Made by a program: the position numbers and the translations under genes. Shown piece by piece: positions 976 through 38,368 of a stretch of 54,062 nt of DNA. The stretch lies in contig JAFAKB010000092.1 in assembly GCA_019235885.1 (NCBI GenBank), positions 1-54,062 on the forward strand, given 5' to 3'. Under the pieces are notes generated by a model. That model ran no database searches, was not told the origin of the DNA, and was given only the letters and a program-made list of their open reading frames with translations. Origin of the DNA: Candidatus Eremiobacterota bacterium (GTDB taxonomy: Bacteria; Vulcanimicrobiota; Vulcanimicrobiia; Vulcanimicrobiales; Vulcanimicrobiaceae). Position 1 is the first letter of the stretch, and each line of letters opens with the position of its first letter.

Positions 976-2874
976 GTGCCGGATCGTCCTTCTTCCGAGC
1001 GTACCGTCTTCGGACGGTACCGAGCCGCGCTGTTGCTCGTGGCGGCGGCCGCCGTCGTATCGGCCGCGTCAGGTTGCGGCCTCGCTCACTCATCGTCGCT
1101 TCCGGCCGTGAAGTCGGTCGCCGCCGCCGACGCGCCGGTCGCGCGCGGCGTCGGACGGCGCGCTCGTTCGCTCACCGGGGTCTCGCAGATTCAAAGCGGG
1201 ACGGCGTATTCGATCGTCAACCAGCTCAGCTCGATGGCGCTCGACGACACGAACGCTTCAACCAGCAACGGCACGAAGATCCAGGAGTGGAGCTGCAACG
1301 GTTACCCGCAGCAGAACTGGACCATCACCTCGCAAGGCGGCGGCATCTACACCATCGTCAACCAGCTGAGCGGCAAGGCGCTGGACGACACGAACGCCTC
1401 GACCGCGAACGGCAACCAGATGCAGCAGTGGAGTCCCGACGGTTACCCGCAGCAGAACTGGACCATCACTTCGCAAGGCGGCGGCATCTACACCATCGTC
1501 AACCAGCTCAGCGGTAAAGCGCTCGACGCCGGCGCTTCGATGACCAACGGGGCGATCATGCAGCAGTGGGATCGCAACGGCTACCCGCAGCAGAACTGGA
1601 TCATCGTGCCCGCCGGGTCGTGCAACGGGTTTCCGGTCCTGACCAACACGCCGTACACGCTCGTCAACCAGCAGAGCTCGTTGGCGCTCGACGACACGAA
1701 CGCTTCGACCGCGAACGGCACCCGGATGCAGCAGTGGAACTGCGACGGCTACGGACAGCAGAACTGGGTTCTTACGCCGGTGAACAACGGCGGATACAGC
1801 ATCGTCAATCAGCTGAGCGGCAAGGCTCTCGACAACGGCTCGAGCGTCTCGAACGGCGCGCCGATCGTTCAACAGTCCGCGACCGGCGGACAACAGCAGA
1901 GCTGGTTCTTGATACCGGGTCCGGCCGGTTCGTTCATCGTGGTGAACCAGCTCAGCGGAAAAGCGGTAGACGTTCCCAGCGCCTCGCTGGCCAACGGCAC
2001 GGCGCTGCAGCAGTGGGACCGCGACGGCTTCCCGCAGCAGAACTGGACGTTCGTGCCGGCCGGCTCGTGCGCCGCGAAGAGCGGCTTCAGCATCCTGATC
2101 GACACGAACCAGATGAACAACACCGAAGCGATGAACGATGCGCCGCTGGCGGCCGACGGCGTATGGAGCATACCGGTGAACAGCTGCAGCGGGTGCATCG
2201 CTGATCCGATCACGGATCCGAACGGTACGTGGCCGGGTGCCCTGGCGCGCCTCAACGCCGCGAACTGGACCGTGACCGAGGACACCTACGATACGAGCGG
2301 CTATTATCCGAGCGCGCAGCTCACCGCGCAGTACATCGGGCGAGCGCCGAACGCGTCGATGGTCTATCACGAGCAGAACACGCCGAACGGCACCGTCTTG
2401 CTCACGTCCGAGATCGACAACGCAGCGGCATGGACCGGCAACTCCATCATCGTGCTCTCGCGCAGTTACACCAGCAACCTCGCGAGTTACGTGGACGCCG
2501 CGCTCGGCGACGGGCATACGTCCGGCGCCGCGTTCGAGACGAACCCTCCTTATGCGAGCATCTCGGGGCAGTACTTCAACCAAGGGATTCAGGACATCCT
2601 GAGCTCGGGACGGAGAGCGTACATGCTGCTGCCGCCGGTCGCCGCGGGCGGCGACTATCTCTCGGACATGCAAAGCGGCGTAACTCAGTACCTCGCGTCC
2701 AGCTCGCAGTTCGGTAACCCGAATCTCTTCATCGTACTGGCGATCTACGGCAGGCCGCAATCTGGCGTCGGTTTTCTTCAGCCGGAGCCCGGAGCGTCGT
2801 CCGGCAACAGCGTCCTTGCGGTGAGGAACTGGCTCTACAGCTATCGGTCGACGACGTTCCGCAACGGCCACTGA
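976..2874 (+). CDS. Secreted ricin-B-type lectin (six QxW repeats) with uncharacterised C-terminal domain
   Basis: 632 residues from GTG. Residues about 17-34 form a hydrophobic signal ending in ASGC, a plausible though weak lipobox (C34), so it is exported and possibly a lipoprotein. Residues 77-358 hold six repeats of about 40-47 residues, each built on a VNQxSxxALD strand and closing with a QQNW or QQSW (QxW) motif. This is the hallmark of ricin-B beta-trefoils; six repeats fit two trefoils. Residues 369-632 form a separate domain with no family I recognise; it contains an IDTNQMNN start and an LFIVLAIYGRP strand near the end, and could be hydrolase-like. Likely role: carbohydrate binding at the cell surface. 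It diverges from the gene before 782. Confidence 0.85.
   Translation: MPDRPSSERTVFGRYRAALLLVAAAAVVSAASGCGLAHSSSLPAVKSVAAADAPVARGVGRRARSLTGVSQIQSGTAYSIVNQLSSMALDDTNASTSNGTKIQEWSCNGYPQQNWTITSQGGGIYTIVNQLSGKALDDTNASTANGNQMQQWSPDGYPQQNWTITSQGGGIYTIVNQLSGKALDAGASMTNGAIMQQWDRNGYPQQNWIIVPAGSCNGFPVLTNTPYTLVNQQSSLALDDTNASTANGTRMQQWNCDGYGQQNWVLTPVNNGGYSIVNQLSGKALDNGSSVSNGAPIVQQSATGGQQQSWFLIPGPAGSFIVVNQLSGKAVDVPSASLANGTALQQWDRDGFPQQNWTFVPAGSCAAKSGFSILIDTNQMNNTEAMNDAPLAADGVWSIPVNSCSGCIADPITDPNGTWPGALARLNAANWTVTEDTYDTSGYYPSAQLTAQYIGRAPNASMVYHEQNTPNGTVLLTSEIDNAAAWTGNSIIVLSRSYTSNLASYVDAALGDGHTSGAAFETNPPYASISGQYFNQGIQDILSSGRRAYMLLPPVAAGGDYLSDMQSGVTQYLASSSQFGNPNLFIVLAIYGRPQSGVGFLQPEPGASSGNSVLAVRNWLYSYRSTTFRNGH
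1227..1508 (+). repeat. Tandem 141-bp repeat inside the lectin gene
   Basis: Two 141-bp (47-codon) units lie head to tail at 1227-1367 and 1368-1508. The last 68 bases of each (1300-1367 and 1441-1508) are identical except for one C/T difference. The other lectin repeats in the gene are related in protein but clearly more diverged in DNA, so this pair looks like the most recent duplication in the repeat array or one being homogenised. Confidence 0.8.
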
Positions 2875-2913: not shown

Positions 2914-3973
2914 GTGCGCTCAACGTCGCGCGGCACCGTGCCCAACCGTTCGGTGCAGCGCTTCCTGGCGATCATCGCCGCGTTCGGCATCTTCGTCCTG
3001 GCGGTAATTGTCCTGAAGCGCGCCGTCGATCTCCCGTACTGGGACGAATGGGACTGGGCGGTGCTCGTCTATGCTTCGCACCATCACAGCTTGACCTTCG
3101 CGAAGCTGTGGGAGCCGCATAACGAGCACCGGATCCTGGTCGCCAACCTGCTCACGCGCGGCCTCGACCGGTTCGGTGGGTGGTCGCCGATTCGCGAGCA
3201 GCTGATCGCGCTCGCGTTGCTGGCGCTGACCCAGCTCGGCGTCTGGATTTCTCGTGCGCCGGACCGTCTCGGCGGCCTACCGCGGCGTCTGCTTTCTGGC
3301 CGCGAGCGTCCCGCTGCTGGGGCTCGGCCAGTACCAAAACCTCGACGGCCGCAACCATCTTCGATTCTGCGAAGGTGCTCGCGAACGGGCTGCGCTACGC
3401 CGGCGTCGGCCGCCGCGGACCTGAGTCGCGGCGCTCTGCTGCGGCTGGTGAGGGTGCCGGGGACGCACGCGACCTTGCTCGCACTCGCCGGAGTGCTGAC
3501 GCTCGCGGCAGTTACCGCCGCGGTCGTGCTCGAACGCCAGGCCGTCTCGACGCTCGTCCTCCTCGCGTACCTGTGGGCCGGCTCGATCGCGCTCTCGGCC
3601 GCGCGCATCGACGTCGCGGTCCTCGATCCCGCCGGCGCAGGGCCACGGTATTTCTTCTATCCTCGTCCTCGAAGCATGGTTCTTCATCCACCGTCCGTTC
3701 GTCGCGCGGCGCGTTCCGGTGCGGGCGGCGGCGATTGCCTTCGTCGCGATCGCGATGCTCGGCAGCCTCCCGGTCCTGCGGCGGACGCACGACGATCTGC
3801 GCTGGACGAGTCCAGCCAAGGTACCCGCGGGCGGATGGATCAAGCTTAGTCCCCAGCTGAGCGCAACGACGATGCCGAATGCGGCCGGTACGAGACGAAG
3901 CGACCGCATCGCTGTCACGCCGGCCGAGTTCGCGCGACTTCAGCAGAATCTTGGTCGAGGTTTCTGTTGTTGA
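2914..3973 (+). pseudogene. Frameshifted chimeric remnant of GT-C-like membrane protein genes
   Basis: The first 111 codons (GTG at 2914 to about 3246) closely match the gene at 5383, including PYWDEWDW, HHHSLTF and HNEHRI. The match continues for about 30 residues in a shifted frame (RRTVSAAYRG..., LGLGQY) after an apparent one-base insertion near 3247. The middle of the protein is then missing. The remaining part resembles the C-terminus of the 4097-type protein (GPRYFFY, then a membrane strand), and reading it needs further frame changes near 3408 and 3656. At least three frame disruptions plus an internal loss argue for a decayed gene fused from two paralogues. Base-calling indels could explain single frameshifts but not the chimeric structure. 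Confidence 0.75.
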
Positions 3974-5382: not shown

Positions 5383-6717
5383 GTGGCCCTTCGCTCGCTG
5401 CAGCGCGTTCCCGTGCTCGTCGCCGCGCTCGGTATCCTGGTTCTGGCGGTGATCATCCTCAAACGCGCGGTCGATCTGCCGTATTGGGACGAGTGGGACT
5501 GGGCCGTGCTCGTCTATGCCGCGCACCACCACAGCTTGACGTTCGCGAAGCTGTGGGAGGCGCACAACGAGCACCGCATCTTGGTCGCGAACGTGCTGAT
5601 GCTCGGGCTCGACCGCTTCGGCGGTTGGTCCCCGGTGCGCGAGCAGCTGCTCTCGCTCTCGCTGCTCGCGCTTACCCAGCTCGGCGTGTGGACGCTCGTG
5701 CGGCGGACGGTTTCGCACGCGTACCGCGGCGTCTGCTTTCTCGCCGCGACCGTCTTGCTGCTGGGGCTCGGCCAGTACGAGAACCTTGACTGGGGGTTTC
5801 AGATCGCGTGGTTCATCTGCGACCTCGCGGCCGTCGTCGTCGTCGTGCTGCTGACCCGGCCGGGCGGCACGTGGCGCGACCTCGGGCTGGCCGTCTTCGC
5901 AGCGGCGCTCGGCAGCCTCAGCTCCTCACAGGGACTGATCACGTGGCCGGTCGGACTGGTGGCGATCGGCTTGATTCCGCGGCAGCGCTCGGCCCGGGCG
6001 GCGCTCTGGCTCGCAACCGGAGCCGTCGTGACGCTCGCCGTGCGCCACGGCGCGCCGCCGCCGGATCCCTCGATGCGCCTCGGGCTCAGCCATCTCTCCG
6101 CGCTCGCGGAGTACGCGCTGGCCTACCTCGGCGCCCCGCTGGCCGCGTCATTTCACCTCGGCCCGTCGATCGCGGCCGGGGCCGCGTTGGTGGCATGGCT
6201 CGGAGCGCTCGCCGTCCTGGCGGTGCGGCTGCCGCTGAGCCGGCGCGTTCGGCTCGCGCCGTGGCTCGCATTGGCCGCCTACGCGGTCGCCGCGGCCGCC
6301 GCTACGGCCCCAGCCCGCGCAGGGTTGGGCCTCGACCAAGCGACGGCGAGCCGCTACGTCTCGATCGCGACGCTGGCCTGGGTCGCCGCGTTGGCGGCAA
6401 GCTTCGTGATGGTCGTCAGCCCGTCGAGGGGTGCGGCGCGGCCGGCGCCGCGGAGCGGGGAATCGCAGTTCAGGCGCTGGGCGGCCGTCGCGGCGGCGGC
6501 GGTCGTCGTCGTGGCTTCGCTGAAGCAGAGCGCCGCGGGGAACGTCATGTGGCAGCTGCACGCGCGCGACCTCCGCGCCGACCGCGAGGCCGTCGCGGCC
6601 GGCGATCCATCCGTGCTCCAGCACCTCTACCCGCGGCCGACGTTCGCCGCCGAGGCGCTGCGCGAGATGGCCGAGGTGCGCGCCGGCGTCTTCCGGCCCG
6701 CTCCGGGCGAACCGTAG
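5383..6717 (+). CDS. Multi-pass membrane protein with DEWDW/HNEHRI loop, GT-C-like
   Basis: 444 residues from GTG 5383. A first helix (about residues 8-24) is followed by a loop with YWDEWDW, HHHSLTF and HNEHRI, then about nine further helices and a soluble tail. The acidic first loop (DEWDW) is what one expects of a GT-C-fold transferase, with metal and lipid-phosphate binding inferred only. The N-terminal third is nearly the same as the start of the pseudogene at 2914, including the bases just upstream of the start, so the two arose by duplication. It ends six bases before the convergent gene at 6724. The reading frame is open upstream, but earlier starts would run through the previous gene and were rejected. 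Confidence 0.7.
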   Translation: MALRSLQRVPVLVAALGILVLAVIILKRAVDLPYWDEWDWAVLVYAAHHHSLTFAKLWEAHNEHRILVANVLMLGLDRFGGWSPVREQLLSLSLLALTQLGVWTLVRRTVSHAYRGVCFLAATVLLLGLGQYENLDWGFQIAWFICDLAAVVVVVLLTRPGGTWRDLGLAVFAAALGSLSSSQGLITWPVGLVAIGLIPRQRSARAALWLATGAVVTLAVRHGAPPPDPSMRLGLSHLSALAEYALAYLGAPLAASFHLGPSIAAGAALVAWLGALAVLAVRLPLSRRVRLAPWLALAAYAVAAAAATAPARAGLGLDQATASRYVSIATLAWVAALAASFVMVVSPSRGAARPAPRSGESQFRRWAAVAAAAVVVVASLKQSAAGNVMWQLHARDLRADREAVAAGDPSVLQHLYPRPTFAAEALREMAEVRAGVFRPAPGEP

Positions 6718-6723: not shown

Positions 6724-7248
6724 CTATTCGACGACGAAGGGCAGCGCCGGGCTGAGCGTTCGTTGAACGCGCGGCGCCGTGGCGGTCGCGAGCTGCAGCG
6801 TGTGCGACCCCGGCGCCAGCGCGCCGGTCGCGAGCACCGCCTCGAAGCCCGAGTCGGCCGCGCCCGGCGCGCCGAGCGCCGTCGCGACGTCCGGCCGAGG
6901 CAAGTGATAGCGAGCCTCGCGCCACGGTCCGGCGTCGACCCGGTACACGAGCCGGGCGCCGCTGCGGTGCAGCACCGGGTCGAGCGCAAAGCCGGTCAGC
7001 CGAAGCTGCTCGCCCCGCTCGATCAGAAGCACCTGGCCGATGTAGTCGACGTGCCGCCCGGCGACGTCGACGCCCTCGAGCCGCCAGCTCGTGCGCAGCT
7101 GCTCGTGCTCGGTGCGGGCCGCCAGCGCGATCCAGCGCGCGCCCGCAGTGGCCGGGAGCGGGGCGGGTCGCAGCGCCAGCGCCGCGGCGGCGCAGCCGAC
7201 CGCCCCGGCGACCAGCACCCACGTCACGGCGCCCTCGAAGCGGTTGCT
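6724..7248 (-). CDS. Membrane-anchored single GW-RPDVA-GF module protein
   Basis: 174 residues from GTG 7248 (an ATG at 7293 would add 15). One N-terminal transmembrane helix (about residues 8-27) is followed by an extracytoplasmic region with no known enzyme motif. Residues 86-150 carry a module seen elsewhere in this window: LTGFALDP, then RPDVATALG at 119-127, SGFEAVL, and APGSHTL. The predicted content is beta-rich. It is convergent with the GT-C-like gene ending at 6717 and divergent from the epimerase at 7304. Function is unknown; the repeated placement of this module beside transferase genes suggests an accessory or sugar-binding role, which is inference. Confidence 0.6.
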   Translation of the reverse strand, partial: SNRFEGAVTWVLVAGAVGCAAAALALRPAPLPATAGARWIALAARTEHEQLRTSWRLEGVDVAGRHVDYIGQVLLIERGEQLRLTGFALDPVLHRSGARLVYRVDAGPWREARYHLPRPDVATALGAPGAADSGFEAVLATGALAPGSHTLQLATATAPRVQRTLSPALPFVVE

Positions 7249-12295: not shown

Positions 12296-13105
12296 ATGGT
12301 GACATCATCCGTCTACGCGCCTCACGGAGAGGTGCGCTCCCGCCGATTCGTCGACTTGATTCGCGTCACCGCGATTCGAGCGCTGATGGTGCGCTATCGC
12401 GGCACCGCGTTCGGCGTGCTGTGGTCGTTCGCCAACCCGGTGCTGATGACGCTGATCTACACGGCGATCTTCGGGACCGCGTTCAAGCGCTACTACGACG
12501 GCTCGTTGACGCGCTACCTCGTCTCCGCGTTCGTCGGGCTGGTCGTCGTCTCGTTCTTCCTGGCGACGACGAACGACGCGCTGCCGTCGGTCGTCAACGC
12601 CGGCTCGCTGATGAACAAGATCGCGATCCCGCCGATCGTCTTCCCGATCGCCTCGGTCGCCGCGAACCTCTTCCAGCAGCTCGTCACGACGTTCCCGATC
12701 CTGTTCGTGCTCTCGATCGTGCTGACGCGGGATCCGGTGCGCGTCGCGCTCGTCCCCGTCGTGCTGGCCGCGGTCGTGGTGCTTTCGGCCGGGTTCGCGC
12801 TGGGATTGGCGGCGCTGTTCGTCTTCTTTCGCGATCTGCCGAACCTGTGGCAGGTCGCGGGCTTCATCCTCTGGCTGAGCAGCCCGCTGTTCTATCCGGT
12901 TCAGCTCGTTCCGCCGCAAGCGCGGACGTGGTATTCGCTGAACCCGATCGGTGAGGCGATCGCCGCGGCGCGCGAGGTCACGATCGCGCGCGGACCGCTC
13001 GATCCGTACCCGGTCCTGTTCACGATCGCCGCCGCGCTGGTCGCGCTCGCGCTGGGAGCGTGGCTGTTCCGCGCGACGCGCGACGATTTCATGGACCTGC
13101 TCTGA
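12296..13105 (+). CDS. wzm: ABC exporter permease for polysaccharide (Wzm type)
   Basis: 269 residues from ATG with six hydrophobic segments. MVRYRGTAFGVLWSFANPVL near the N-terminus and the SPLFYPVQLVP and YSLNPIGEAI blocks late in the protein are the standard features of ABC-2-type O-antigen/teichoic-acid permeases (Wzm, TagG, RfbA families). Two copies would form the channel through which an undecaprenyl-linked polymer is driven across the inner membrane by the ATPase encoded next. The stop TGA overlaps the ATG of that gene by one base, so they are co-translated. Confidence 0.92.
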   Translation: MVTSSVYAPHGEVRSRRFVDLIRVTAIRALMVRYRGTAFGVLWSFANPVLMTLIYTAIFGTAFKRYYDGSLTRYLVSAFVGLVVVSFFLATTNDALPSVVNAGSLMNKIAIPPIVFPIASVAANLFQQLVTTFPILFVLSIVLTRDPVRVALVPVVLAAVVVLSAGFALGLAALFVFFRDLPNLWQVAGFILWLSSPLFYPVQLVPPQARTWYSLNPIGEAIAAAREVTIARGPLDPYPVLFTIAAALVALALGAWLFRATRDDFMDLL

Positions 13106-14088
13106 TGTCCGCCGCGATCGAGCTGCACGACGTCACCCTCGTCCGCCGCACGCAGGAAGAGCTTCACTACGACTTCAAGCGGACGGTGCTCGACCTCGTG
13201 CGCGGTCGCCGGCGCCGCCCGCGCCGGCGGACGGTGATCGACAACCTCACCGCGTCGATCGGCCAAGGCGTCAAGCTCGCCGTGATCGGCGCGAACGGCA
13301 GCGGAAAGTCGACCGTGCTGAAGCTGATCGCCGGCGTGCTGCGCCCGACGCGCGGTTCGGTCGAGGTGCGCGGCACCGTCGCGCCGCTGATCGAGCTCGG
13401 CGTGGGTTTCGAGCCGGAGCTCACGCTGATCGACAACGTGATCTTCTACGGAATCCTGCTGGGACACGAGGAGGCGACGGTCCGCGCGCACGCGGAGGCG
13501 ATCCTCGAGTTCGCCGAGCTGACCGAGATGCGCGACGAGCCGACCAAGACGCTTTCCTCGGGAATGTCGGCGCGGCTGGGCTTCGCGATCGCGACCGAGT
13601 GGCGCCCCGACATCCTGCTGCTCGACGAGGTGCTCTCGGTCGGCGACGAGCGCTTCCGCCGCAAGTGCGCCGCGCGGCTGGACCGCTTTTGGGACGCGCA
13701 CTCGACGATCGTCGTCGTCTCGCACGACCTCGACTACGTCGTGCGCACCTGCGAGCGCGTGATCTGGGTCGACCACGGCGTCGTGCGGTTCGACGGCGCG
13801 GTCGCGGAAGGCGTCGAGCAGTACCTGAAAACGGTGCCGTTCGGCCCCGGCTACACGCGCGGCGAGGAGCTGCTCGAGCTCGCGCGCGAGAACCAGCGCG
13901 GCGAGATCCTCGTCCGCGGCCTCTCGCCAACCGAGCAGGGACGGAAGGTGTACCTGATCCGCGACGGGATGCGGCACTGGGTGACGCACCCGAGCTGGTA
14001 CGTGAAGAGCGGGTACGCGTGGGAGAACGTGCTGCACGTCGACGACGCCGCGATCCTGGAGATTCCGGAAGGCGATTACCTGACGTGA
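13105..14088 (+). CDS. wzt: ABC exporter ATPase for polysaccharide (Wzt type) with unusual C-terminal module
   Basis: 327 residues. Walker A GANGSGKST at 62-70, signature LSSGMSARL at 150-158, Walker B ILLLDEV with the catalytic E175, and switch His in SHD at 207 are all present, so the ATPase should be active. The insertion of basic residues at 33-42 is unusual. After the ATPase (about residue 245), O9a-type Wzt proteins carry a carbohydrate-binding domain. Here there is only about 80 residues, ending in VYLIRDGMRHWV and YAWENVLHV (282-312), a small module also known from the tails of cell-surface and envelope proteins. It may recognise a polymer end, which is inference. Overlaps the next gene by four bases. 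Confidence 0.9.
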   Translation: MSAAIELHDVTLVRRTQEELHYDFKRTVLDLVRGRRRRPRRRTVIDNLTASIGQGVKLAVIGANGSGKSTVLKLIAGVLRPTRGSVEVRGTVAPLIELGVGFEPELTLIDNVIFYGILLGHEEATVRAHAEAILEFAELTEMRDEPTKTLSSGMSARLGFAIATEWRPDILLLDEVLSVGDERFRRKCAARLDRFWDAHSTIVVVSHDLDYVVRTCERVIWVDHGVVRFDGAVAEGVEQYLKTVPFGPGYTRGEELLELARENQRGEILVRGLSPTEQGRKVYLIRDGMRHWVTHPSWYVKSGYAWENVLHVDDAAILEIPEGDYLT

Positions 14089-15206
14089 GCGCCGAGGCGG
14101 AGACGACGATCGCCGAGATCGTCGGCTCGGGCCGGCGCGTATTGCACGCCGGCTCCGAGGCGGCGAGCATCGTGACGCTGCTGCGCGAGGCCGGCAACCC
14201 GGTGATCTCGCTCGATCCCGCCGAGCTGGAAAGCGAAGCCCGGCGTGCGCGCGAAGCGTACGACGCGGTGGTCTTCGCCGGCGCGCTCGAATCGCTGCGC
14301 GATCCCGCGCGCGCGCTGACCGCGTGCCGCCGGCTGCTGCGCGAGGGCGGCGTCGTCGTCGCCGCGCTGCGCAACGTCGCGCACGGCGCGGTGCGGCTGG
14401 CGCTGTTGCACGGCCGCTTCGACTACCGCGCGCTGGGGATTGCCGAGGCGCCGCCGGTGCGGTTCTACACCCGCGCGTCGGCGCTGCGGCTGTTCGCGGA
14501 AAGCGGGCTCGCGACGACGCGCGTCGAGCGCACGACGGCGCCGGTGTTCGGCGACTCGCCGCTCGTCCCGCGCGTGCGGCGCAACGACTTCGATCCGGCG
14601 CTCGTCGCCGAGGTGCTCGGCGACGAAGATGCCGAGACGCTGCAGTTCGTGATCGCCGCCGAACCGCTCGGCGACGCCGAGGCGCTCGCGCTGCTGCGCG
14701 CCGAGGTGGCGCGGCTCGAGCGCGGGTTGGAGACGCCGAGCGCCGAGTGCGGTGAGGAAATCGATCCCGCGCACGCCGCGAGCGAGCGTCTCGCCGAGCT
14801 CGAGCTGGTGCGCGCGGAGCGCGACGCGCTCGCGGAGCGCGTCGCGATGCTCGACGATCTGCTCGCCGTCGAGCGCGCGACGCGCCTCGACGTCGAGGAC
14901 GCGTGCGAGCGCATCGAGCGCGTCGCGCGCAGCCGCTTCGAGCTGGCGCGCGAGGACGAGCTGGCGCGGCTGCGCGCGCGCTCCACCGCGGTCGAGCTCG
15001 AGCTGAAGCTCGCCCGCCAAGCCGCGCGCCGCGTCGAATCGCCCGCGCGCCGGCCGCCGGCGCGCGCGCCGCTCTCGGCCGACGCCGTGCGCGGCCTGCT
15101 CGGCGGCCGGCGGACGCTGGAGGTCTTGCCGCCGCCGGCCGCGGGCGAGAGCCCGCTGCGTTCGCGCTTGCGCCCGCTGCGCCGCCTGTTCCGGTTTCCA
15201 CGATGA
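14085..15206 (+). CDS. Methyltransferase-like domain with C-terminal coiled coil (cassette A)
   Basis: 373 residues from GTG, overlapping the previous stop. Residues about 1-210 follow the class I SAM methyltransferase fold of the MetW-like glycan group: ESLRDPARAL, LLREGGVVVAALRNVAHGAV, FYTRASALRLFAESG. However, motif I, normally D/E-x-G-x-G, reads VLHAGSEAAS, and the usual LDxTHxRFFT block is eroded to APPVRFYT. SAM binding is therefore doubtful. Residues about 220-330 are rich in Glu, Arg, Leu and Ala in heptads, a coiled coil. The longer relative is at 45935. It may be a scaffold for the transferase that follows; a divergent active methyltransferase is the alternative. Confidence 0.7.
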   Translation: MSAEAETTIAEIVGSGRRVLHAGSEAASIVTLLREAGNPVISLDPAELESEARRAREAYDAVVFAGALESLRDPARALTACRRLLREGGVVVAALRNVAHGAVRLALLHGRFDYRALGIAEAPPVRFYTRASALRLFAESGLATTRVERTTAPVFGDSPLVPRVRRNDFDPALVAEVLGDEDAETLQFVIAAEPLGDAEALALLRAEVARLERGLETPSAECGEEIDPAHAASERLAELELVRAERDALAERVAMLDDLLAVERATRLDVEDACERIERVARSRFELAREDELARLRARSTAVELELKLARQAARRVESPARRPPARAPLSADAVRGLLGGRRTLEVLPPPAAGESPLRSRLRPLRRLFRFPR

Positions 15207-17173
15207 TCGTGCGGCGCTTTCGGCACGCGGAGCAGCCGCGCGCGAGCGTCATCGTCCTCGTGTACGCGCAAGCAGAGTATCTCGACGCGGCGCTGCGCTC
15301 GCTGCTCGAGACCACCGATCCGGCCTTTCCCTACGAAGTCATTCTGGTTTTGAACGGCGCCGCGCCACACGTTGCGGCGGCGGCGCGGCGCGCGGCGCGC
15401 GGCGCGCGGATCGTCGAGGCGCCGGCGAACTTGGGCTTCGGCGGCGGCAGTAACTTCGGCGCCGCGCACGCGCGCGCGCCGTACTTGGTCTTTCTCAACG
15501 ACGACGTCGTCGTGCGGCCCGGCTGGCTGGAAGAGCTGGTGGTGACCGCGGACGCGCGGCCCGACGCCGGCGCGGTCGGGAGCCGCATCCTGTTCGCCGG
15601 CGGCGAGCAGGTTCAGGAAGCCGGTTCGGTGATCTTCGCGGACGGCTCGACCGCGCCGCTCGGACGCGGCTTGCCGGCCGATTCGCCGCGCGCGCGCGCG
15701 GTGCGCGAGGTCGACTACTGCTCGGCCTGCTCGCTGCTGGTGCGGCGCGCGGCGTTCGAGCAGGCCGGCGGGTTCGAGCGCCGCTACTTTCCGGCGTACT
15801 ACGAAGACGTCGATCTGGCGCTGAAGCTGCGCGAGCTCGGCTGGACGATCCTCTACCAGCCCGCCTCCGAGTTGCTGCACGCCGAATCGGCGAGCACGAC
15901 GAGCGATTTCAAGGCGTATTTGTTTCGGCGCAACCATCGCACGCTCCGGCGCACCTGGCAACGGACGCTCGGCGAATTCGAACCGTCGCGCGGCGGCGAT
16001 CCGAGCGCGCTCGCCGCCGCCGTGCGCCGCGCGCGGCGCGCGCGTGCCGAGCTGCTCGTCGTCGACGACCGTGTCCCCGATGCGGGCCTGGGCTCGGGCT
16101 ACGGCCGCCTCGCGGAGCTGTTTCGCGATCTGGCCGGGGGCCGCTATGCGATCACGTTCTCTGCGACCGCCGGTCCGCCGGGCGACGGCGCGGCGGTCGG
16201 CGCCTGGGGCGTCGACGTCGCCGACGGCGACCTCGGCGCGCTGATCCGCGATCCCGCGACGCGCATCGACGTCGCGGTGATCAGCCGTCCGCACAACTGG
16301 GAGCGCTGCGCCGCGACGATCCGCAAGCACCATCCGGACGCTGCGCTGATCTACGATGCCGAAGCGCTCTTCCACCGCCGCATTCGCCTGCAGCTCGAGC
16401 TGGAAGCCGATCCGGCACGCCGTGATGCGCTGCAGCGCGAGCTCGAGATCGCGTACGAGCTCGAGGGCCGCATCGCGCGGCTCGCCGATCACGTCGTCTG
16501 CGTCTCCGCCGACGAAGAGCGCGCGCTCCGCGCGTTCGCGCCGCGTACGCCGATCGACTTGCTGCTGGCGACGACGGAGGGCGTCGTTCCGTCCCGGCGG
16601 GCTTTCGCGCAACGGCGCCCGCAGGCGCTCTTCGTCGCCGGCTGGATGGCGGGGCCGGGCTCGCCGAACGCCGACGGCTTGGAGTGGTTCGGCGCCGAGG
16701 TGATGCCGCTGGTGACGGCGCGCCTGCCGGATGCGTGCGCGATCATCACCGGCGCGAACCCGCCGCCGCAGGTGCTGCGGTTGCGTTCACCCGCGATCCG
16801 GTTCACCGGATTCGTCGATGATCTGCAGGAGCTCTACGCGAGCGCGCGGATCGCGATCGCGCCGCTGCGCTTCGGCGCCGGCGTGAAGATCAAGACGATC
16901 GAGGCGGTGCAGCACGGCGTCCCGGTGGTCGCGACGCCGACCGGCGTCGAAGGAATCGTGCTCGACGAGCCCGGCGGGGTCGTCGTCACGGAGGATGCGG
17001 CGCGCTTCGCCGACGCGGTCGTCGCGCTGCTCGGCGATGAGAACGCGTGGTCGAACGCGCAGCGCGCGGCGTTGCGGCAAGCCGAGCGGTGGCGGACCGC
17101 GCCGCGCCGCACCTGGCGCGACGTCGTCGAGGACGTCCTCGCGCGCCGCTCAGCGGCGCGACATCTCGCGTAG
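15203..17173 (+). CDS. GT2-GT4 fusion glycosyltransferase (cassette A)
   Basis: 656 residues starting at ATG 15203, inside an ATGA overlap. Residues 1-270 are GT2: ASVIVLVYAQAEYL, NLGFGGGSN, DxD-like NDD at 99-101, and the EDVDLALKLRELG block near 208. From about 283 a second domain of GT-B/GT4 type begins (VVDDRVPDAGLGSGYGR) and includes YDAEALFHRR, GWMAGPGSPN and GAGVKIKTIEAVQHG (near 559), the donor-nucleotide site. Two transferases in one chain suggest consecutive addition of two sugars. A close relative of the same length lies at 47539. The last 24 bases overlap the convergent coiled-coil gene. Confidence 0.87.
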   Translation: MIVRRFRHAEQPRASVIVLVYAQAEYLDAALRSLLETTDPAFPYEVILVLNGAAPHVAAAARRAARGARIVEAPANLGFGGGSNFGAAHARAPYLVFLNDDVVVRPGWLEELVVTADARPDAGAVGSRILFAGGEQVQEAGSVIFADGSTAPLGRGLPADSPRARAVREVDYCSACSLLVRRAAFEQAGGFERRYFPAYYEDVDLALKLRELGWTILYQPASELLHAESASTTSDFKAYLFRRNHRTLRRTWQRTLGEFEPSRGGDPSALAAAVRRARRARAELLVVDDRVPDAGLGSGYGRLAELFRDLAGGRYAITFSATAGPPGDGAAVGAWGVDVADGDLGALIRDPATRIDVAVISRPHNWERCAATIRKHHPDAALIYDAEALFHRRIRLQLELEADPARRDALQRELEIAYELEGRIARLADHVVCVSADEERALRAFAPRTPIDLLLATTEGVVPSRRAFAQRRPQALFVAGWMAGPGSPNADGLEWFGAEVMPLVTARLPDACAIITGANPPPQVLRLRSPAIRFTGFVDDLQELYASARIAIAPLRFGAGVKIKTIEAVQHGVPVVATPTGVEGIVLDEPGGVVVTEDAARFADAVVALLGDENAWSNAQRAALRQAERWRTAPRRTWRDVVEDVLARRSAARHLA

Positions 17174-17482
17174 CGCGCGCAGCGCCTGCGCGCGCTCGCG
17201 GTCTTTCAGCCGGCAGACGTGGGTGACCGCGTCGCTGATGCGGCGCCGCACCCTCTCTTCGTCGACGGCGGCGCGCACGTACGCCGAGGTCGCGATCTGC
17301 GCGAGCCGCTCGCGCGCGACCTCGCCCGCGCGCAGCGCGCGGTGCTCGCGCTCTTCGGCTTCGGCGAGCCGCGCGCGCAAGTCGGCGACGTAGCCGTCGC
17401 GCACCGAGAGCTCGCTGCGCAGCGCGTCGACTTCCCGCTGCAAACGGTTCAGCTCCGCGGTTCGCTCGCGCGATTCGTCCAT
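17150..17482 (-). CDS. Small coiled-coil protein (cassette A)
   Basis: 110 residues, almost wholly charged heptads. The first 75 residues form a coiled coil containing SVRDGYVADLRARL, followed by a basic helix (AVTHVCRLKDRERAQALRAL). No signal peptide, membrane segment or enzyme motif. The protein at 49475 shares the RDGYVADL block and the C-terminal ALRxM ending, which supports this as a real gene despite being short and overlapping the 3' end of the + strand transferase by 24 bases. It lies downstream of the double-module gene on the same strand. Function unknown; pairing with the coiled coil of the 14085 protein is a reasonable guess. Confidence 0.65.
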   Translation of the reverse strand: MDESRERTAELNRLQREVDALRSELSVRDGYVADLRARLAEAEEREHRALRAGEVARERLAQIATSAYVRAAVDEERVRRRISDAVTHVCRLKDRERAQALRALREMSRR

Positions 17483-17531: not shown

Positions 17532-18284
17532 TCAGCGCCGCGCGAGCAGCGTGAGCGGCGGACCGGCGGGGCGCACCGTCACGCCGTCGGAGCCGAGCAC
17601 GACGATGCGCAGCGGCGTCCCGTCGCGCGCGACGTACGTCCCCGGGAACGAGACGCTGAAGCCGCAGTACACGTGGTGCTCGCCGAGCTCCTCGGCGACG
17701 TCCTGGCGCTCGAAGCCGTACGCCGCTTCGACGACGTGCTCCCCGACCAGCGCGAAGGCGGCGACGGCCGGCGTTTGCGTGACGGTGTCGGCGGCCCAGC
17801 CGTCGATGCGGATCACCGCGTCGCGCGGAACGTGGAGCGTCGAGCCTTGAATCGGCTCGGTGCGGCCGCTCTCGTCGGTCCAGGTGTCGATGCAGCCGCC
17901 GGCGGGCTCGACGTCGGCCAGCGGAACGGCCGCGTTCAGCCGGAAGCGCGCGCGCGCCAGCTCACCGGCCCGATCGCCCGCGACGACGAGCGCCAGCGCG
18001 TGCTCGCCTGCGGCGAGATCGACGGTCGCGAGCGACGCGCTGAAGCCGGAACCGGCCGCCGACGGATCGCCGAGCGCGCCGGCGACGTCCGGGCGCGGGA
18101 TGCTGCGCTCGATCGCGTGCTCGGGGCCGCCGTCGATGGTGAGCGCGAAGCTCGTCGCGTTGCCGGGATGATGAGCCCACCCCCGGACGACGAGCACGTC
18201 GCCGACGCAAGCGGTCGTTCCGGGCGGCGCGTCGGAGAGCGGCAGGAGTTGGATCTCGTCGATCGCTCCGGTAGCGGGTCGCAT
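17532..18284 (-). CDS. Cytoplasmic protein with two GW-RPDVA-GF modules (cassette A)
   Basis: 250 residues from ATG 18284. The frame is open further upstream, but the relative at 49888 starts at the same point (GAID/GALD in residues 4-9). Two similar halves are visible. Half 1: GW at 35-36, RPDVAGALG at 64-72, SGF at 79-81, AAGEHALAL. Half 2: GW at 162-163, RQDVAEELG at 193-201, CGF at 207-209, PGTYV. No signal peptide or membrane helix. The composition looks like beta-sandwich repeats. Modules of this GW...RPDVA type are, as I recall, common in bacterial surface and glycan proteins but lack a defined role. It is divergent from the lipoprotein gene at 18375. Confidence 0.65.
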   Translation of the reverse strand: MRPATGAIDEIQLLPLSDAPPGTTACVGDVLVVRGWAHHPGNATSFALTIDGGPEHAIERSIPRPDVAGALGDPSAAGSGFSASLATVDLAAGEHALALVVAGDRAGELARARFRLNAAVPLADVEPAGGCIDTWTDESGRTEPIQGSTLHVPRDAVIRIDGWAADTVTQTPAVAAFALVGEHVVEAAYGFERQDVAEELGEHHVYCGFSVSFPGTYVARDGTPLRIVVLGSDGVTVRPAGPPLTLLARR

Positions 18285-18374: not shown

Positions 18375-18809
18375 GTGCTCCACGAACCGTTCCGCCGGAT
18401 ACCGCTCGCTCTCTGCTTCGCCGCCGCGCTGGCCTCGTGCAGCTCTCCGCCGGCGTCGATCTCCGACCCCGGTCCGGCATTCGTGCGCGTCGGTTCCGAG
18501 CAATCGATCTGGTATTTGCCGGCCGGCACGGCGACGTACTGTCTGGTCGCCGACCCCACGCAGATGAACGTCTTCGGCGGCTTCGGCCGCGTCAAGCAGG
18601 TCGACGCCGGCGCGACGATCGCCGGCCGCAGGCTCGACGGAACGTGCCGCTATCCCGACGGCGTCTACGAGATCGCCGGCACGGCGTACCGGCTGCACGG
18701 CGACGCGTTCTGCCGCGAGCGCCGGCCCGAGAAGCACGCGACCTCGCTACCGGCGGGAACGGCGGTCGGCGTCTCGCGCCGCGACCTCGGGCGCTGCGCT
18801 TCCGGCTGA
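18375..18809 (+). CDS. Small lipoprotein of unknown function
   Basis: 144 residues from GTG. Residues 8-21 form a hydrophobic signal and LASC (L19-C22) is a good lipobox, so it should be lipidated and exported. The mature part has four further cysteines (in YCLVAD, GTCRYP, AFCRER and GRCASG) that could form disulfides, and a VYEIAGTAYRL strand. No family recognised. It sits alone on the + strand between two - strand genes, and its stop directly abuts the stop of the GSCFA gene. Its start region faces the double-module gene, 90 bases away. Confidence 0.6.
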   Translation: MLHEPFRRIPLALCFAAALASCSSPPASISDPGPAFVRVGSEQSIWYLPAGTATYCLVADPTQMNVFGGFGRVKQVDAGATIAGRRLDGTCRYPDGVYEIAGTAYRLHGDAFCRERRPEKHATSLPAGTAVGVSRRDLGRCASG

Positions 18810-19886
18810 TCAGTCCGCGACGCCGGCGCGGGCGTTCTCGGCCAGAAACTTCTCGAAGTAGACTTCGTTGCAGACGTCCTCTTCGATGTCCGCGACGATC
18901 GGCTCGGCGCTGAGCGCCGCGACGGCGCGTCCGTCGTTCGGCGCGGCGTACGCGCGGAAGAACGAGTGCATCACGCGGTCGACCGCCTCCGCGCTGACGG
19001 TGCGGCGATCGGCCTCGAAGCCGTCGTTGCCGTCGAACCCGACGACGATCTCGTACGACGGAAAGTAGTCGACGAAGTCGTAGCGCGCGCGCATCTCCTC
19101 GGCGGCGACGCGCAAGACCGCTTTGGACCAGAACGTCGACTGCGCGACGTGCCGCGGCTCCATCGTCGCCGCGAGCGGAACCGGCGAGACGGTGAGGATC
19201 ACGCGCAGGTTCCGGTTCAGCGCGCGCGCGATCTGCAGAAACTCGTCGAGATACTGCACGTTCTCGGCGACCGAGAGGTTCCGGAAGCGATAGCGCTCCG
19301 CATCGAACGTCCCCACCCCGGCACCCGGGCAGAGCGGGAGCGCGGCCTCGTCCGCGGTGCAGACCCACGTTTCGGTGAGGCCGAGCGTGAAGACGAACAC
19401 TTCGCTTTCCGCGAGCATGCGGCGCACCGCGGCAAGGTGCTGCTTGCGGTCGGCCTCGAGGGCGGCGACCGAGGCGAAGCCGCCCGGCTCGACGCGCGGC
19501 CGGAACGGGTCGGCGAAGCGGTCCTTCAGCGGCCACGGCGGCTCGGACGGCTGGAACGCGCCGGTCGCGCGGCGCGCGAGCTGCACCAGCTGCAGCGTCG
19601 TGTAGATGTCGCCGAAGCGCGCCGAGTACGCGCCGTAGTTACGCTTGCGGCGCTGCTTGGCCGACTCCCACACCGGCCCGGGCTCGGCGACGAAGTACGT
19701 GTAGCCGGAGGCGCGCAGGCGCTCCGCGATGCGCTGCGCGAAGCAGCTCCCCGCCGACGCGATGCGCGTCGTGCGGTCCACCGTGAAGCGGCCGGCGTGC
19801 TGCGGGTCGACGAAACCGGCGGAGCGGTCTGCGAGCGCGCGCGACCAGATCTGAAAATCGGGCAAGCCGGCATAGGGAAACTTCAC
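18810..19886 (-). CDS. GSCFA-domain protein (SGNH-like)
   Basis: 358 residues from GTG in a GTGA overlap with the upstream SGNH gene. The family-defining GSCFA lies at 46-50, followed by an aromatic-rich YGAYSARFGDIYTT block and FTLGLTETW, VSPVPL and FWSKAVLR segments found throughout the GSCFA family (Pfam GSCFA). These proteins resemble SGNH hydrolases, with the GSCFA serine in the nucleophile region, and are often found in polysaccharide loci. Removal or transfer of O-acyl groups on the glycan is likely but not proven. Last gene of the - strand operon that starts at 28653 or later. Confidence 0.85.
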   Translation of the reverse strand: MKFPYAGLPDFQIWSRALADRSAGFVDPQHAGRFTVDRTTRIASAGSCFAQRIAERLRASGYTYFVAEPGPVWESAKQRRKRNYGAYSARFGDIYTTLQLVQLARRATGAFQPSEPPWPLKDRFADPFRPRVEPGGFASVAALEADRKQHLAAVRRMLAESEVFVFTLGLTETWVCTADEAALPLCPGAGVGTFDAERYRFRNLSVAENVQYLDEFLQIARALNRNLRVILTVSPVPLAATMEPRHVAQSTFWSKAVLRVAAEEMRARYDFVDYFPSYEIVVGFDGNDGFEADRRTVSAEAVDRVMHSFFRAYAAPNDGRAVAALSAEPIVADIEEDVCNEVYFEKFLAENARAGVAD

Positions 19887-20701
19887 GGCAGAGCAGCCTC
19901 CATGGCGATGGAGTGGTATTGGCGCAAGATCGGTCGCGCGCCCGCGTGACCGACGTGTACCCCGTCGAGCAGCAGCCCGGCCTTGGCGACGTTGCGCTCG
20001 GTCATCTCATTCCAGGTGTCGATGAAGCGCATGTTCGCTTCCTCGCAAAAACGGCGCAGCGTCGCGTTGATCGCCAGGTGCACCGCATAGCGCGTGCGCG
20101 CGCGCGACGTCACGCCGGTCAGGCGGGCATACTCGTCGTCGTCGCGGGTCGGCGGCGGAAGGCTCGAGACGGCCAGCCGCGGGATGCCGAAATCACGCAG
20201 GCCGACCAGCATGCGGAAGAGCTGCCCCATCTGCTCGACGATCCGCTCGTCGAGATCGGCGGCCGGCAAGATGCGCGGCGCCTCGGCGGGCGGCAGCAGC
20301 GAGAGGTCCGCGTCGAACGAGAGCAGCGGGTCGGCGTCGAGCGGGATCGAGGCGATGATCTCGCGCGCATCGATCTCGCCGACGGTGAACAACACGTAGG
20401 TATGGTCGGCGATCCAGCTTGGGGTGAAGAAGGAGTCGCCGAGGCGCACCGTCAGCAGCTCGCCGGTATACCCGTGCGGGAGCAGTCGCAGCATGTGAAA
20501 CGCCGCGAGCGCTGCGACGATCCCGGGATGAAACTCGCCTTCCGGGCTCAAGGACGACTTCGCGGAGAGCCCCTGCACGCAATAGGCCTCGCTGACCGCC
20601 AGCGGTTCGCCGGTCGTCTCGTCGCGCAACACCAGCGCGTTCAAGGGGCCGCTGTGGCTGTCGCCGATCACGAAGAGGGGGCGCACGTAGGTGTCGGCCA
20701 T
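19883..20701 (-). CDS. SGNH/GDSL-like hydrolase
   Basis: 272 residues from ATG. Block I is GDSHS at 13-17 with the likely nucleophile S15, and the C-terminal DGVH at 246-249 supplies the Asp-His pair of the SGNH triad. No signal peptide is visible, so action in the cytoplasm is most likely. It is translationally coupled to the GSCFA gene, which suggests two related acyl-modifying proteins working on the same glycan. Acetyl esterase and acetyltransferase roles cannot be told apart here. Confidence 0.72.
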   Translation of the reverse strand: MADTYVRPLFVIGDSHSGPLNALVLRDETTGEPLAVSEAYCVQGLSAKSSLSPEGEFHPGIVAALAAFHMLRLLPHGYTGELLTVRLGDSFFTPSWIADHTYVLFTVGEIDAREIIASIPLDADPLLSFDADLSLLPPAEAPRILPAADLDERIVEQMGQLFRMLVGLRDFGIPRLAVSSLPPPTRDDDEYARLTGVTSRARTRYAVHLAINATLRRFCEEANMRFIDTWNEMTERNVAKAGLLLDGVHVGHAGARPILRQYHSIAMEAALP

Positions 20702-35249: not shown

Positions 35250-35891
35250 TCACTTTCCGACGGTGAACCGGACCGCGCGGCGCAGCAGGTAGAAACCCGA
35301 ACGTTTTGACGCGCGCAGCGCGGCTTGGACGGCGTGCTCGCCCGGCGCAACGCGGTCGAGCGGGAGCTCGAGCGCGAAGCCGCCACGCGGCGCGCCGCCG
35401 GCGGCGATCCCCGGATAGCGAAAGCGACCGTCGATCACCAGGAACGCGTCGCCGCTCCGTGCATGCGTCGCCGGGTCGCTGATCCAGCCGGTGAGGACGA
35501 TGCTCGCGCGCGGGTCGAAGCGGCTCCCCGAAGACGGCGCACCCGCGATGCCCAGCTCGCCGCCGGGCGCGAAACCGAGCATCGGCAGCGCGTCGAGCGC
35601 CGGATAGTTCAGCGCCGGCTCGGCGGCGGATGTTGCTGTGGCGGCGGAGCCGGGAAGCTGCGCGACGTTGGTCGCGCCCTCGCGCGGGCGGAACGCGCGA
35701 ACGACGAGCAGCCCGGCGACGACGGCGAGGACCAGCGCGGCGACCCCCGCCACGACGAACCGCGGGCGAGCGCGCTCGCGCAGCGGCAATGCCGGCGCGG
35801 GAACGCGCCCGCGCAGCGCCCAGCGCATGGCGGCGGCGACGACGGCCAGCCACGCGAGCGCGAGGACGAGAATGTCGGCGACGCGCAGCAT
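35250..35891 (-). CDS. Membrane-anchored protein with degenerate GW module
   Basis: 213 residues from ATG 35891, inside a TGATG overlap with YfhO. Two hydrophobic segments (about 5-27 and 45-66) are followed by a linker rich in Ala/Ser/Thr and a C-terminal domain. Residues 131-195 follow the window's recurring module: LTGWISDP (GW 135-136), a GGF at 170-172 in place of the RPDVA...GF pair, and APGEHAV. The RPDVA part is absent, so it is the most diverged copy. Translational coupling to YfhO suggests a partner of that membrane enzyme. Function unknown. Confidence 0.6.
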   Translation of the reverse strand: MLRVADILVLALAWLAVVAAAMRWALRGRVPAPALPLRERARPRFVVAGVAALVLAVVAGLLVVRAFRPREGATNVAQLPGSAATATSAAEPALNYPALDALPMLGFAPGGELGIAGAPSSGSRFDPRASIVLTGWISDPATHARSGDAFLVIDGRFRYPGIAAGGAPRGGFALELPLDRVAPGEHAVQAALRASKRSGFYLLRRAVRFTVGK

Positions 35892-38368
35892 CAGCCCGTG
35901 ATGCGCACGGTTGCAGCGCGCCGTTGCAGCCGCGCTCGCAGGGGTTCCCATGCGAGCAGCATGACGATCCCGACGAACGCGAAGCAGCTCAGCAGCAGGC
36001 CGAGGGCGAAAGAGCGCGGAGCATAGCGGAACACGATGCTGTGGTGACCCGGCGTGAGCAGCACGCCGCGAAACCAGTAGTCGGCGGTCAGCAGCGATGC
36101 CTGACGGCCGTCGACCGAAACCGTCCAGCCGGGGTAGTCGCTGTCGGTCAGCACGAGCAGCGCGGGCCGCGCGACGTCGGCGGTGATGTCCGCGCGTTGC
36201 GAGCCGTACGCGACGATCGTCGCCGGCTCGGCCGCGCCCGCGCCGCGATTCGTGGCGAGCGCGGAGACCGCGGACGCGACCGCGCCGCCTGTCCCGGTCA
36301 GGATGGCGGTCGTGAAGACGTCGGTGCTCGGCGCGCGCAGCGCTTCCAGCGCCGCGGCGTCGTCCGGCGCCGCGCGCGCGTGAGAGAAGAGCGCCGCGCG
36401 CGGGAGCGTGTGCTTCACCCGGTAGACGCGCGCGTCGGCGTCGTAGACTTTTTCGAAATCAGCGGGGAAGCCGTCGAGCTTCGTGTTTCCGTTGACGACG
36501 TACCCGATCGACGAGAGGGCCAGCCATCGCCGGCCCTCGGGCGCTTCGATGGGGAGCCCTTCGTCGCCGGTGAAGCGGTCGGTGAGCACCATCGGCGCGA
36601 CCGGCGGAAAGAACGCTTTTACGAACGTCAGGTACTTTCGGTAGAAGAGCCCGTCCAGACCGCGCACGTCGCTCAGGCCGAACACGCCGGACCAGTTCGG
36701 GTAGAGGAACGCGTCTTGACCGTAGACGCGCTCGCGCGAGCCGGCGGTCTTCTCCTGCAAGAAGCGGATGTACGGGCCGCCGGCGTACGCGGTGACGTTC
36801 GTCCGCGGTTCCGCGGTCGCGAAGTAGAACACCGGGACGACGTAGTTCAGCGAGAGATCGATCGCGACCAGCGCGCAGACGATCCCGCCGATCACGTTCG
36901 GCCGCGCGAGCCGTTCGAGGCGCGCGCTGCGCAGCAGCGGCGCGAGCGTCGCGGCGGCCGCGATGACGACGAGCCCGATCGTGAACAGCAGCGAGCCGTA
37001 GAAGTAGTCCGCGTGCGCCGCGACCGCGCGCACCGGCCCGTCCAGCGCGACGAAGACGAGCGTAAGGGACGCGAGCGCGAACGCGAAGACCGCGGCCGCG
37101 GTCCGGCGGCCGGCGCCTTCCATGATGCGCGCGACGCCGAAGCCGCACAGCGCGGCGACGCACCAGGAGATCAGCGCCTGATCGTACTTCCAATACACGA
37201 GAAGGTCGTAAATCGGAAGACGGCCGATCCAGTTCGCGAGCGGAGAGCCGTACTGCTTGAGCACCAGAAAGACGAGCGCCGCGAGGAAGAACAGCTCGAC
37301 CAGCTCGCGCTCTCCGATCCGCCGGCGGAGGGCGGCGCGCACCGCGAACGCGGCCGCGACGAGCGCGAAGAGCGGCGCGACGATCCCGAGATAGCCGTGA
37401 ATGCCGACGTCGCCCGCAAAACCTTGCAGAATGCTGTTGCGAACCGGCCCGAAGATCAGCGGGACGAAGTACGCGATCGCGGCCGGCGAGAGGTGCTCCG
37501 CCTGCAGCCCGGTGCCCGCTTTGTGCACGCTCGAAGCGATCGAAAGGAACTCGGCGAGCGGGAGCAGCATCACGGCGGCGCTGGCGAATCCCAACCCGGT
37601 CGCGGCGGCGTAGCGCAGCGCGAGCCGGCCGGAGACCGCGAGCCGCTCGCGCGCGCTCGCGACGCGGACGATCCAGTACGCGTAGACGAGCGAGACGTCG
37701 AGCACCTGAGACTCCGGCATCCCGCCGAGCATCATCAGCGCGACGGCGAGCGCGAACAGGCCGGTGGCGAACGCGTCGCGGCGGCGGAAGAGCAGTTCCG
37801 CCGCGTAGAACGCGAACGGCAGCAGCAGCTCGACGCTGAGGTGCGGCAAGCCGTAGAAGAAGATGAAGTACCCGTTCAGCATGAACGCGATCGCGCCCGC
37901 CGCCGCCGCGGCGAACGGCACGAACAGCCGCAGGTACAGAAACGCGAACAAGCCGGCGAGAAATAGCCGAGCGACGATCCACCACGCGTACGTCACCGCG
38001 TTCGGCGCGAGGACCATCGGCAGCGTGAGCGGATAGTACGGCTGCGTCTCCATGTCGGCTGCGACGGGCGTGCCGTACGACATGTACGGGTTCCACAGCG
38101 GAGCCTCGTGCTCGGAGAGATAGTCGTGCCGCTCGATCGGCCACATCGGCTCGATGAACCAGCCCGAGGTTCCGGCATCGATGACCTTCTGCATGCGGGT
38201 GTTCGTTACGCCGGCCGCGCCGTACGGATAAATGCTCTGAACGTCTTGTGAACTGCTCAGCAGCGTCTGCTGCCCGGTGAGAAACGGAAAGAACAGCAGC
38301 AGCAAGATGCCGGCCAGGATCGCGCTGATCCGCGCCGGCTCGTGGTCGCGCAGAATGCGAAGGATCAA
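35891..38368 (-). CDS. YfhO-family membrane protein
   Basis: 825 residues, start taken as TTG 38368. FLTGQQTLLSSSQDVQSIYPYG and WNPYMSYGTPVAADMETQ in the first loop, many helices, and a C-terminal beta domain with SDYPGWTVSVDGR and GHHSIVFRYAPRSF are hallmarks of YfhO (Pfam YfhO), a GT-C-like family. B. subtilis YfhO acts in glycosylation of lipoteichoic acid, so a lipid-carrier-dependent sugar transfer on the outer face is expected. It sits seven bases downstream of the 38376 gene. No ATG fits the N-terminus, and the TTG start lacks a strong ribosome site. Confidence 0.85.
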   Translation of the reverse strand: MILRILRDHEPARISAILAGILLLLFFPFLTGQQTLLSSSQDVQSIYPYGAAGVTNTRMQKVIDAGTSGWFIEPMWPIERHDYLSEHEAPLWNPYMSYGTPVAADMETQPYYPLTLPMVLAPNAVTYAWWIVARLFLAGLFAFLYLRLFVPFAAAAAGAIAFMLNGYFIFFYGLPHLSVELLLPFAFYAAELLFRRRDAFATGLFALAVALMMLGGMPESQVLDVSLVYAYWIVRVASARERLAVSGRLALRYAAATGLGFASAAVMLLPLAEFLSIASSVHKAGTGLQAEHLSPAAIAYFVPLIFGPVRNSILQGFAGDVGIHGYLGIVAPLFALVAAAFAVRAALRRRIGERELVELFFLAALVFLVLKQYGSPLANWIGRLPIYDLLVYWKYDQALISWCVAALCGFGVARIMEGAGRRTAAAVFAFALASLTLVFVALDGPVRAVAAHADYFYGSLLFTIGLVVIAAAATLAPLLRSARLERLARPNVIGGIVCALVAIDLSLNYVVPVFYFATAEPRTNVTAYAGGPYIRFLQEKTAGSRERVYGQDAFLYPNWSGVFGLSDVRGLDGLFYRKYLTFVKAFFPPVAPMVLTDRFTGDEGLPIEAPEGRRWLALSSIGYVVNGNTKLDGFPADFEKVYDADARVYRVKHTLPRAALFSHARAAPDDAAALEALRAPSTDVFTTAILTGTGGAVASAVSALATNRGAGAAEPATIVAYGSQRADITADVARPALLVLTDSDYPGWTVSVDGRQASLLTADYWFRGVLLTPGHHSIVFRYAPRSFALGLLLSCFAFVGIVMLLAWEPLRARLQRRAATVRITG

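Follow-up and report, generated by a model that had tools for sequence, protein, structure and literature searches.

We describe a protein module of about 90 residues whose copies are homologous, share a predicted fold, bunch together in genomes, keep conserved gene partners and occur in gene fusions. We consider it fairly likely that the module is an unclassified Ig-like accessory domain, of the carbohydrate-binding type, that acts in surface-polysaccharide assembly either in cis or in trans. By analogy with known systems, it is probably the part of its hosts that recognises the sugar chain. The stretch of DNA analysed here, which we call the window (54,062 nt), holds six copies in four minus-strand genes:

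17532-18284, minus strand: protein A, two tandem modules (DNA ~17934-18206 and ~17547-17825), no membrane segment
49888-50628, minus strand: protein B, two tandem modules (DNA ~50290-50562 and ~49897-50181), no membrane segment
6724-7248, minus strand: protein C, one N-terminal hydrophobic segment and one module (DNA ~6736-7017)
35250-35891, minus strand: protein D, two hydrophobic segments and one degenerate module (DNA ~35262-35513)

A first-pass annotation of this DNA had proposed six copies in four proteins, had called the copy in D degenerate and had assigned two hosts to the membrane and two to the cytoplasm, and each of these proposals holds. The gene positions it gave are all correct, the hydrophobic segments of C and D are N-terminal and have no counterpart in A and B, and a single profile unites the six copies. 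In a leave-one-out test, a profile built from five copies and searched against 498 six-frame ORFs of the window recovered the sixth at E-values of 2.7e-18 (A1), 5.3e-15 (A2), 2.6e-14 (B1), 2e-18 (B2) and 2e-13 (C), with the best background ORF at a sequence E-value of 0.01 to 0.35 across runs. Copy D, from which the RPDV stretch is missing, was recovered weakly (sequence E 3.5e-5, domain 0.014) and reached 7.3e-10 with profiles that include relatives. Proteins A and B are 39% identical along their whole length. An extended profile added no seventh copy to those in the window, its next best match having an E-value of 0.29, and a profile search of the whole 4.5-Mb genome gave six matches, all on the contig of the window. 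A candidate at G000:C18:4339-4506 (E 0.031) was dropped as a module; by eye, its ORF looks like a DNA-binding regulator.

The four genes lie in a cluster that also encodes GT2 and GT4 enzymes, epimerases, methyltransferases, and GSCFA and sulfotransferase proteins. The features that bear on the module are the following:

5383-6717, plus strand: GT-C-like polytopic protein with an LPYWDEW motif, partner of C; no Pfam match
12296-13105, plus strand: ABC-2 type membrane subunit, Wzm-like (PF01061, E 3.2e-11)
13105-14088, plus strand: ABC ATPase, Wzt-like (PF00005), with neither Wzt_C nor the module
15203-17173, plus strand: GT2-GT4 glycosyltransferase, convergent with the A block
17150-17482, minus strand: small protein, coiled coil by eye, downstream of A
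35891-38368, minus strand: YfhO family membrane protein (PF09586, E 3.1e-11), upstream partner of D
47557-49551, plus strand: GT2-GT4 glycosyltransferase, convergent with the B block, paralogue of 15203-17173
49475-49888, minus strand: small protein, coiled coil by eye, downstream of B, paralogue of 17150-17482
50677-51525, minus strand: sulfotransferase family gene (PF13469, E 6.1e-8), upstream of B on the same strand

The product of 5383-6717 appears to be a GT-C enzyme, a reading taken from a modified DxD-type motif. Every module gene had been described as convergent with or downstream of a transferase-type gene, and as a statement about direct neighbours this is accurate for two of the four. 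Gene C converges directly on the GT-C-like gene across a gap of 6 bp, and the start of D overlaps the stop of the YfhO gene by one base. Genes A and B, however, do not adjoin their GT2-GT4 genes; in each case a same-strand coiled-coil gene (17150-17482 and 49475-49888, respectively) intervenes, and the last base of B is the first base of the latter. The two blocks are paralogous, each consisting of a GT2-GT4 gene that converges on a small coiled-coil-like gene followed by a two-module gene. The same block is seen again in two relatives (L036 and L037), and two relatives encode homologues of the 17150-17482 protein next to A/B-type genes or close to them.

Several other features of the window deserve mention in their own right. 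A plus-strand gene at 2914-3849 looks like a broken duplicate of the GT-C-like gene: it is a truncated paralogue whose first 109 residues are 81% identical to that protein and whose remainder is unrelated. At the edge of the polysaccharide cluster, 976-2874 (plus strand) encodes a protein in which the ricin-type beta-trefoil lectin repeat occurs several times (PF14200, E 1.1e-56). A methyltransferase at 45935-47542 (plus strand) carries a long heptad-like tail, an arrangement that we take to resemble the chain-terminating methyltransferases of O-antigen clusters. On the minus strand, a GSCFA gene adjoins a weak GDSL-like gene (18810-20701), possibly as a glycan-modifying pair. An ARAGORN call of tRNA-Ser at 48011-48102 (plus strand), within a GT2-GT4 gene, is probably a false positive.

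Iterating the profile gave 54 modules from the window and 20 loci of relatives, of which 51 were aligned. G9 is the only invariant position in this alignment, and conservation is 90% or higher at W10, R41, D43, V44, G57 and G70. The module is present in 33 of 149 genomes of Ca. Eremiobacterota/WPS-2, and in 22 of the 85 good-quality ones, and within the phylum its host clusters are mostly polysaccharide clusters. Matches bunch: G006, a genome in a single contig of 3.5 Mb, has five within 13 kb, G008 has nine within 38 kb and G005 seven within 37 kb. A wider contig scan gave just two loci, both from close relatives (G004 and G001). The two named relatives of A and B carry the labels WPS-2 and Candidatus Eremiobacterota, from which we place the window's organism in this phylum. 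Pfam and NCBIfam gave no meaningful match to the four proteins or to the 51 modules (Pfam E up to 10 and up to 1, respectively); the Pfam GW domain is absent from all 51 modules, and the best PHROGs match had an E-value of 0.0059, in a single one of them. By tblastn, a triple-module protein matched nothing in plasmids and, in phages, two tape-measure proteins only (E 0.9); the L048 module gave E-values of 1 or worse throughout in plasmids, one of these matches, in Azospirillum, being later confirmed by profile; and the L156 module found nothing in phages and two Neorhizobium records in plasmids. Among the literature matches listed, those for the motif RPDVA were unrelated papers, and none named the module. 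The module is a new, unnamed sequence family whose job is probably of a known kind, although its arrangement is partly new.

Structure prediction, which the first-pass annotation had proposed as a check, gave a confident model. With ten sequences as input (the six window copies and four from L085/L086), AlphaFold2 modelled the single module as an all-beta, Ig-like beta-sandwich (pLDDT 92.1) in which the RPDVA stretch forms a short helix. In the model of full-length B (pLDDT 80.9) this domain appears twice, preceded in each case by an additional strand. Structural matches were to generic Ig, Fn3 and amylase N-terminal sandwiches, with Z up to 7.0 for the single module and up to 8.6 for full-length B. 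As regards CBM31-like or CBM48-like Ig sandwiches, the amylase N-domain 4aef (Z 7.0 over 73 residues, 2.8 A) tied with unrelated Ig and Mo-enzyme domains, and the top Foldseek row for the single module was CBM31 (2cov, E 0.17, probability 0.97). No Wzt domain appeared among the VIA-align rows listed, which is not evidence for a different fold. The modelled fold is compatible with a carbohydrate-binding module and does not demonstrate one. The conserved G, W, R, D, G and F could be core residues, and with so generic an Ig/Fn3-like fold the module might be a structural spacer that merely positions or stabilises catalytic domains. We regard this as improbable, since separate small proteins carrying the module are kept beside the same GT-C in several genera, an arrangement needless for a spacer.

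Enrichment next to transferases in other genomes, the second expectation raised by the first-pass annotation, was also borne out. Of the 106 genes directly next to a module gene, 19 matched glycosyltransferase family 2 (PF00535) and 10 matched PF08241, against at most 1 of 106 random genes for either, the controls coming from 20 regions at round coordinates in four genomes and the neighbours from many genomes. Genes were called with an in-house codon-score script (998 genes, coding density 0.93), which missed two module genes that were added by hand, with one conflicting call removed; in the 106-neighbour Pfam set, window gene 18375-18809 was swapped for 18810-19886. A local GT2 profile matched 19 of 106 adjacent genes, 21 of 153 genes two to three positions away, 21 of 275 further off and 0 of 367 random genes. 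Adjacent genes differed from other genes of the same loci at p = 0.018, a value that is uncorrected and drawn from non-independent genes. Because the GT2 rate falls with distance, the link is first to the polysaccharide cluster as a whole and only modestly to the adjacent gene. Counts of ABC2_membrane and YfhO neighbours, taken alone, were not significant (p = 0.11 and 0.18).

Conserved pairs give a more specific picture. A profile of the GT-C family beside C located it at 17 places in the 149 genomes, two of them fragments, and 8 of the 15 non-fragment genes are adjacent or fused to a module gene (four convergent, three co-directional and one, in L141, fused). Five of these eight were profile seeds picked for adjacency; without seeds the count is 3 of 10, for which we estimate a chance probability of ~5e-5 (by hand, from a per-gene probability). 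The other 7 of 15 have no module nearby. Other genera have the GT-C pair of the window too, its two genes being convergent, co-directional or fused. The YfhO pairing, which had been put forward alongside it, did not generalise: 4 of 9 genes of the YfhO subfamily adjoin a module gene, all four being seeds, and none of the five non-seeds does, so this pairing appears only as conservation among seeds from two genera. These data also speak to the idea that the six copies are recent duplications inside a glycan cluster, with their neighbours incidental. The paralogy of the A and B blocks, GT2-GT4 and coiled-coil genes included, and the largely cluster-level GT2 enrichment would fit such an origin, but transferase fusions in other genera and in Pseudomonadota, together with GT-C pairs in differing orientations, speak against it, and we think it very improbable.

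The module is fused to a range of proteins. Pfam-supported cases include methyltransferases (L038, L041 and L043), a GT2 enzyme followed by a hydrophobic segment (L043 11860-13521, with the GT2 part Pfam-supported), DUF2142 membrane proteins (L052, L054, L055, L098 and L101), a protein with WbsX, methyltransferase and radical SAM domains (L099) and a Wzt-type ABC ATPase (L049). A methyltransferase in L090 carries a weak module (E 0.0085). By eye, more fusions of like kinds occur in L156, L157, L158, L160, L161 and L163, among them, in another family of the phylum, a protein made up of an ABC ATPase, the module and a sulfotransferase-like part. The DUF2142 fusions do not match the GT-C family profile. 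In the DUF2142-type proteins of L101, L102 and L107 (of which the Pfam scan covered L101), the module lies at about residues 530-640 and a second, weak partial match at about 710-765. A less expected partner is a phytanoyl-CoA-dioxygenase-like protein, so identified by eye, which bears the module at its C-terminus (L156 1-1209). A simple hydropathy script, with C and one L050 gene added by hand, sorted 67 module genes into 21 small proteins with N-terminal hydrophobic segments, 15 soluble tandem proteins, 16 soluble single or fused proteins, 11 polytopic proteins and 4 others.

With the module fused to methyltransferases and to proteins of the GT2, GT-C-like, DUF2142 and WbsX kinds, the best reading is an accessory domain for glycan enzymes. 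The original proposal of an accessory domain for glycan transfer is in this sense partly supported; the GT2 enrichment lies mostly at the level of the cluster. Its further suggestion, a stand-alone transferase partner, captures part of the picture: separate proteins exist, but the module is often fused, and it is found on the exporter ATPase Wzt as well.

A link to the exporter is seen in L049, where the module forms the C-terminus of Wzt (778-1770); L161 looks the same by eye. Known Wzt proteins carry a cap-binding domain at this position, as described in PMC9445017. Over 194 aa of the ABC part, the L049 and window Wzt proteins share 56% identity; they differ in their C-termini, the window protein (13105-14088) ending in a stretch of about 80 residues that has no Pfam match. 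Wzt_C (PF14524) is found in 6 of the 149 genomes of the phylum and in none of the window's family, and it matches neither the four window proteins, the 51 modules, the L049 Wzt nor the window Wzt. Aligned with the Wzt_C regions of the phylum (a set of 6), the module scored an hhalign probability of 2.4% over 28 columns. Of 8 genomes checked, 7 have an ABC-2 permease gene inside the module cluster or no more than ~15 kb from it. We infer that the module stands in for Wzt_C; in some genomes it would do so in cis, and in the window perhaps in trans.

Outside the phylum, two GT-C-like proteins on a plasmid of Azospirillum lipoferum end in the module (record E 1.9e-13 and 1.5e-9), and one of these fusions lies inside a cluster of glycosyltransferases and methyltransferases. 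The first is found in three further Azospirillum records, and the A. ramasamyi protein among them has the module (2.5e-14). Against the GT-C family profile the Azospirillum proteins reached 7.8e-17 for L178 and just 0.0047 for L087; direct BLAST with the window GT-C gave E-values of 0.016 and 0.14, which are unconvincing alone. On a Neorhizobium galegae plasmid, a small stand-alone protein has a weak module (1.5e-4) and then, by eye, a heptad-like stretch and, at its end, a hydrophobic segment, and its gene overlaps a GT4 gene by four bases.

Such heptad-like stretches bear on the main rival, namely that the module is a protein-protein docking domain that joins glycan enzymes, coiled-coil proteins and the exporter and makes no contact with sugar. 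The Neorhizobium protein would suit this, as would the coiled-coil genes next to the tandem copies and the many unrelated partners. The same module, however, occurs in soluble hosts and in membrane-anchored or polytopic ones, and it sits at the C-termini of Wzt and GT-C proteins, where known domains bind glycan. Both observations point to glycan binding, and a glycan seems likelier than any one protein partner as the thing that soluble and membrane-anchored hosts have in common. We accordingly rate docking as rather unlikely.

Under the accessory-domain reading that we favour, the module, fused or as a small partner protein, would hold the growing or acceptor glycan near an enzyme or exporter. 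Proteins C and D, membrane-anchored and with one module each, would serve transferases of the GT-C and YfhO types outside the membrane. In the cytoplasm, the soluble tandem proteins A and B and their coiled-coil partners would support GT2-GT4 enzymes, methylation, sulfation or the loading of Wzm/Wzt. What we infer in this scheme is that the module binds glycan, which glycan this is, on which side of the membrane each host works and that hosts and partners touch. Small GT-Cs may, as one review speculates (PMC8035078), depend on a second protein to bind the acceptor, and C and D would fit such a partner. A bolder version, which we advance tentatively as a possibility, is that of a modular glycan reader on both sides of the membrane, in which separate membrane-anchored subunits are the missing acceptor-binding partners of small GT-C enzymes, soluble tandems replace the absent Wzt_C in trans in Ca. 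Eremiobacterota, and relatives extend to alphaproteobacteria and a prophage lysin.

That carbohydrate-binding domains are fused to transferases and exporters is already known. The present family supplies named candidates together with their partners (C with GT-C, D with YfhO, and A/B with GT2-GT4 and Wzt). If our reading is true, it also offers a sequence handle on hidden glycan enzymes that Pfam does not annotate, the GT-C family beside C being one example.

Among known systems, the GW domains of Listeria resemble the module in name only (glycine-tryptophan). The sole notable sequence match in the PDB was to EfAmi1, an Enterococcus faecium prophage amidase (8c4d residues 221-289, E 6.1e-4, i-E 0.0016), a single, weak match that covers the first two thirds of the profile only. 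The part that matches is the C-terminal domain, which its authors propose to be a carbohydrate-binding module (PMC10167349); unlike the proteins studied here, EfAmi1 is a lysin rather than a biosynthetic protein, and this domain is missing from the crystal. Wzt_C offers another parallel, the module being likewise a beta-sandwich at the C-terminus of a relative's exporter ATPase in an O-antigen-type cluster, although it is mostly a separate protein or part of transferases and has no PF14524 match. Some GT-C enzymes are known to have, at the C-terminus, an Ig-like CBM by which acceptor O antigen is bound (PMC11127046), and in GT136 ORF12 of Citrobacter youngae, AftD and EmbC an Ig-like domain similarly ends a polytopic transferase. 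The module differs from these in often being a separate, membrane-anchored protein, and the likeness to ORF12 described here is one of architecture. The GT136 CBM binds acceptor O antigen and yet was dispensable under the conditions tested (PMC11127046), so that even a correct reading of the module may come with a mild phenotype. With the carbohydrate-binding modules of glycosyltransferases as a functional class, the family shares the architecture of a beta-sandwich, here a predicted one, fused to, or paired with, a glycan-active enzyme.
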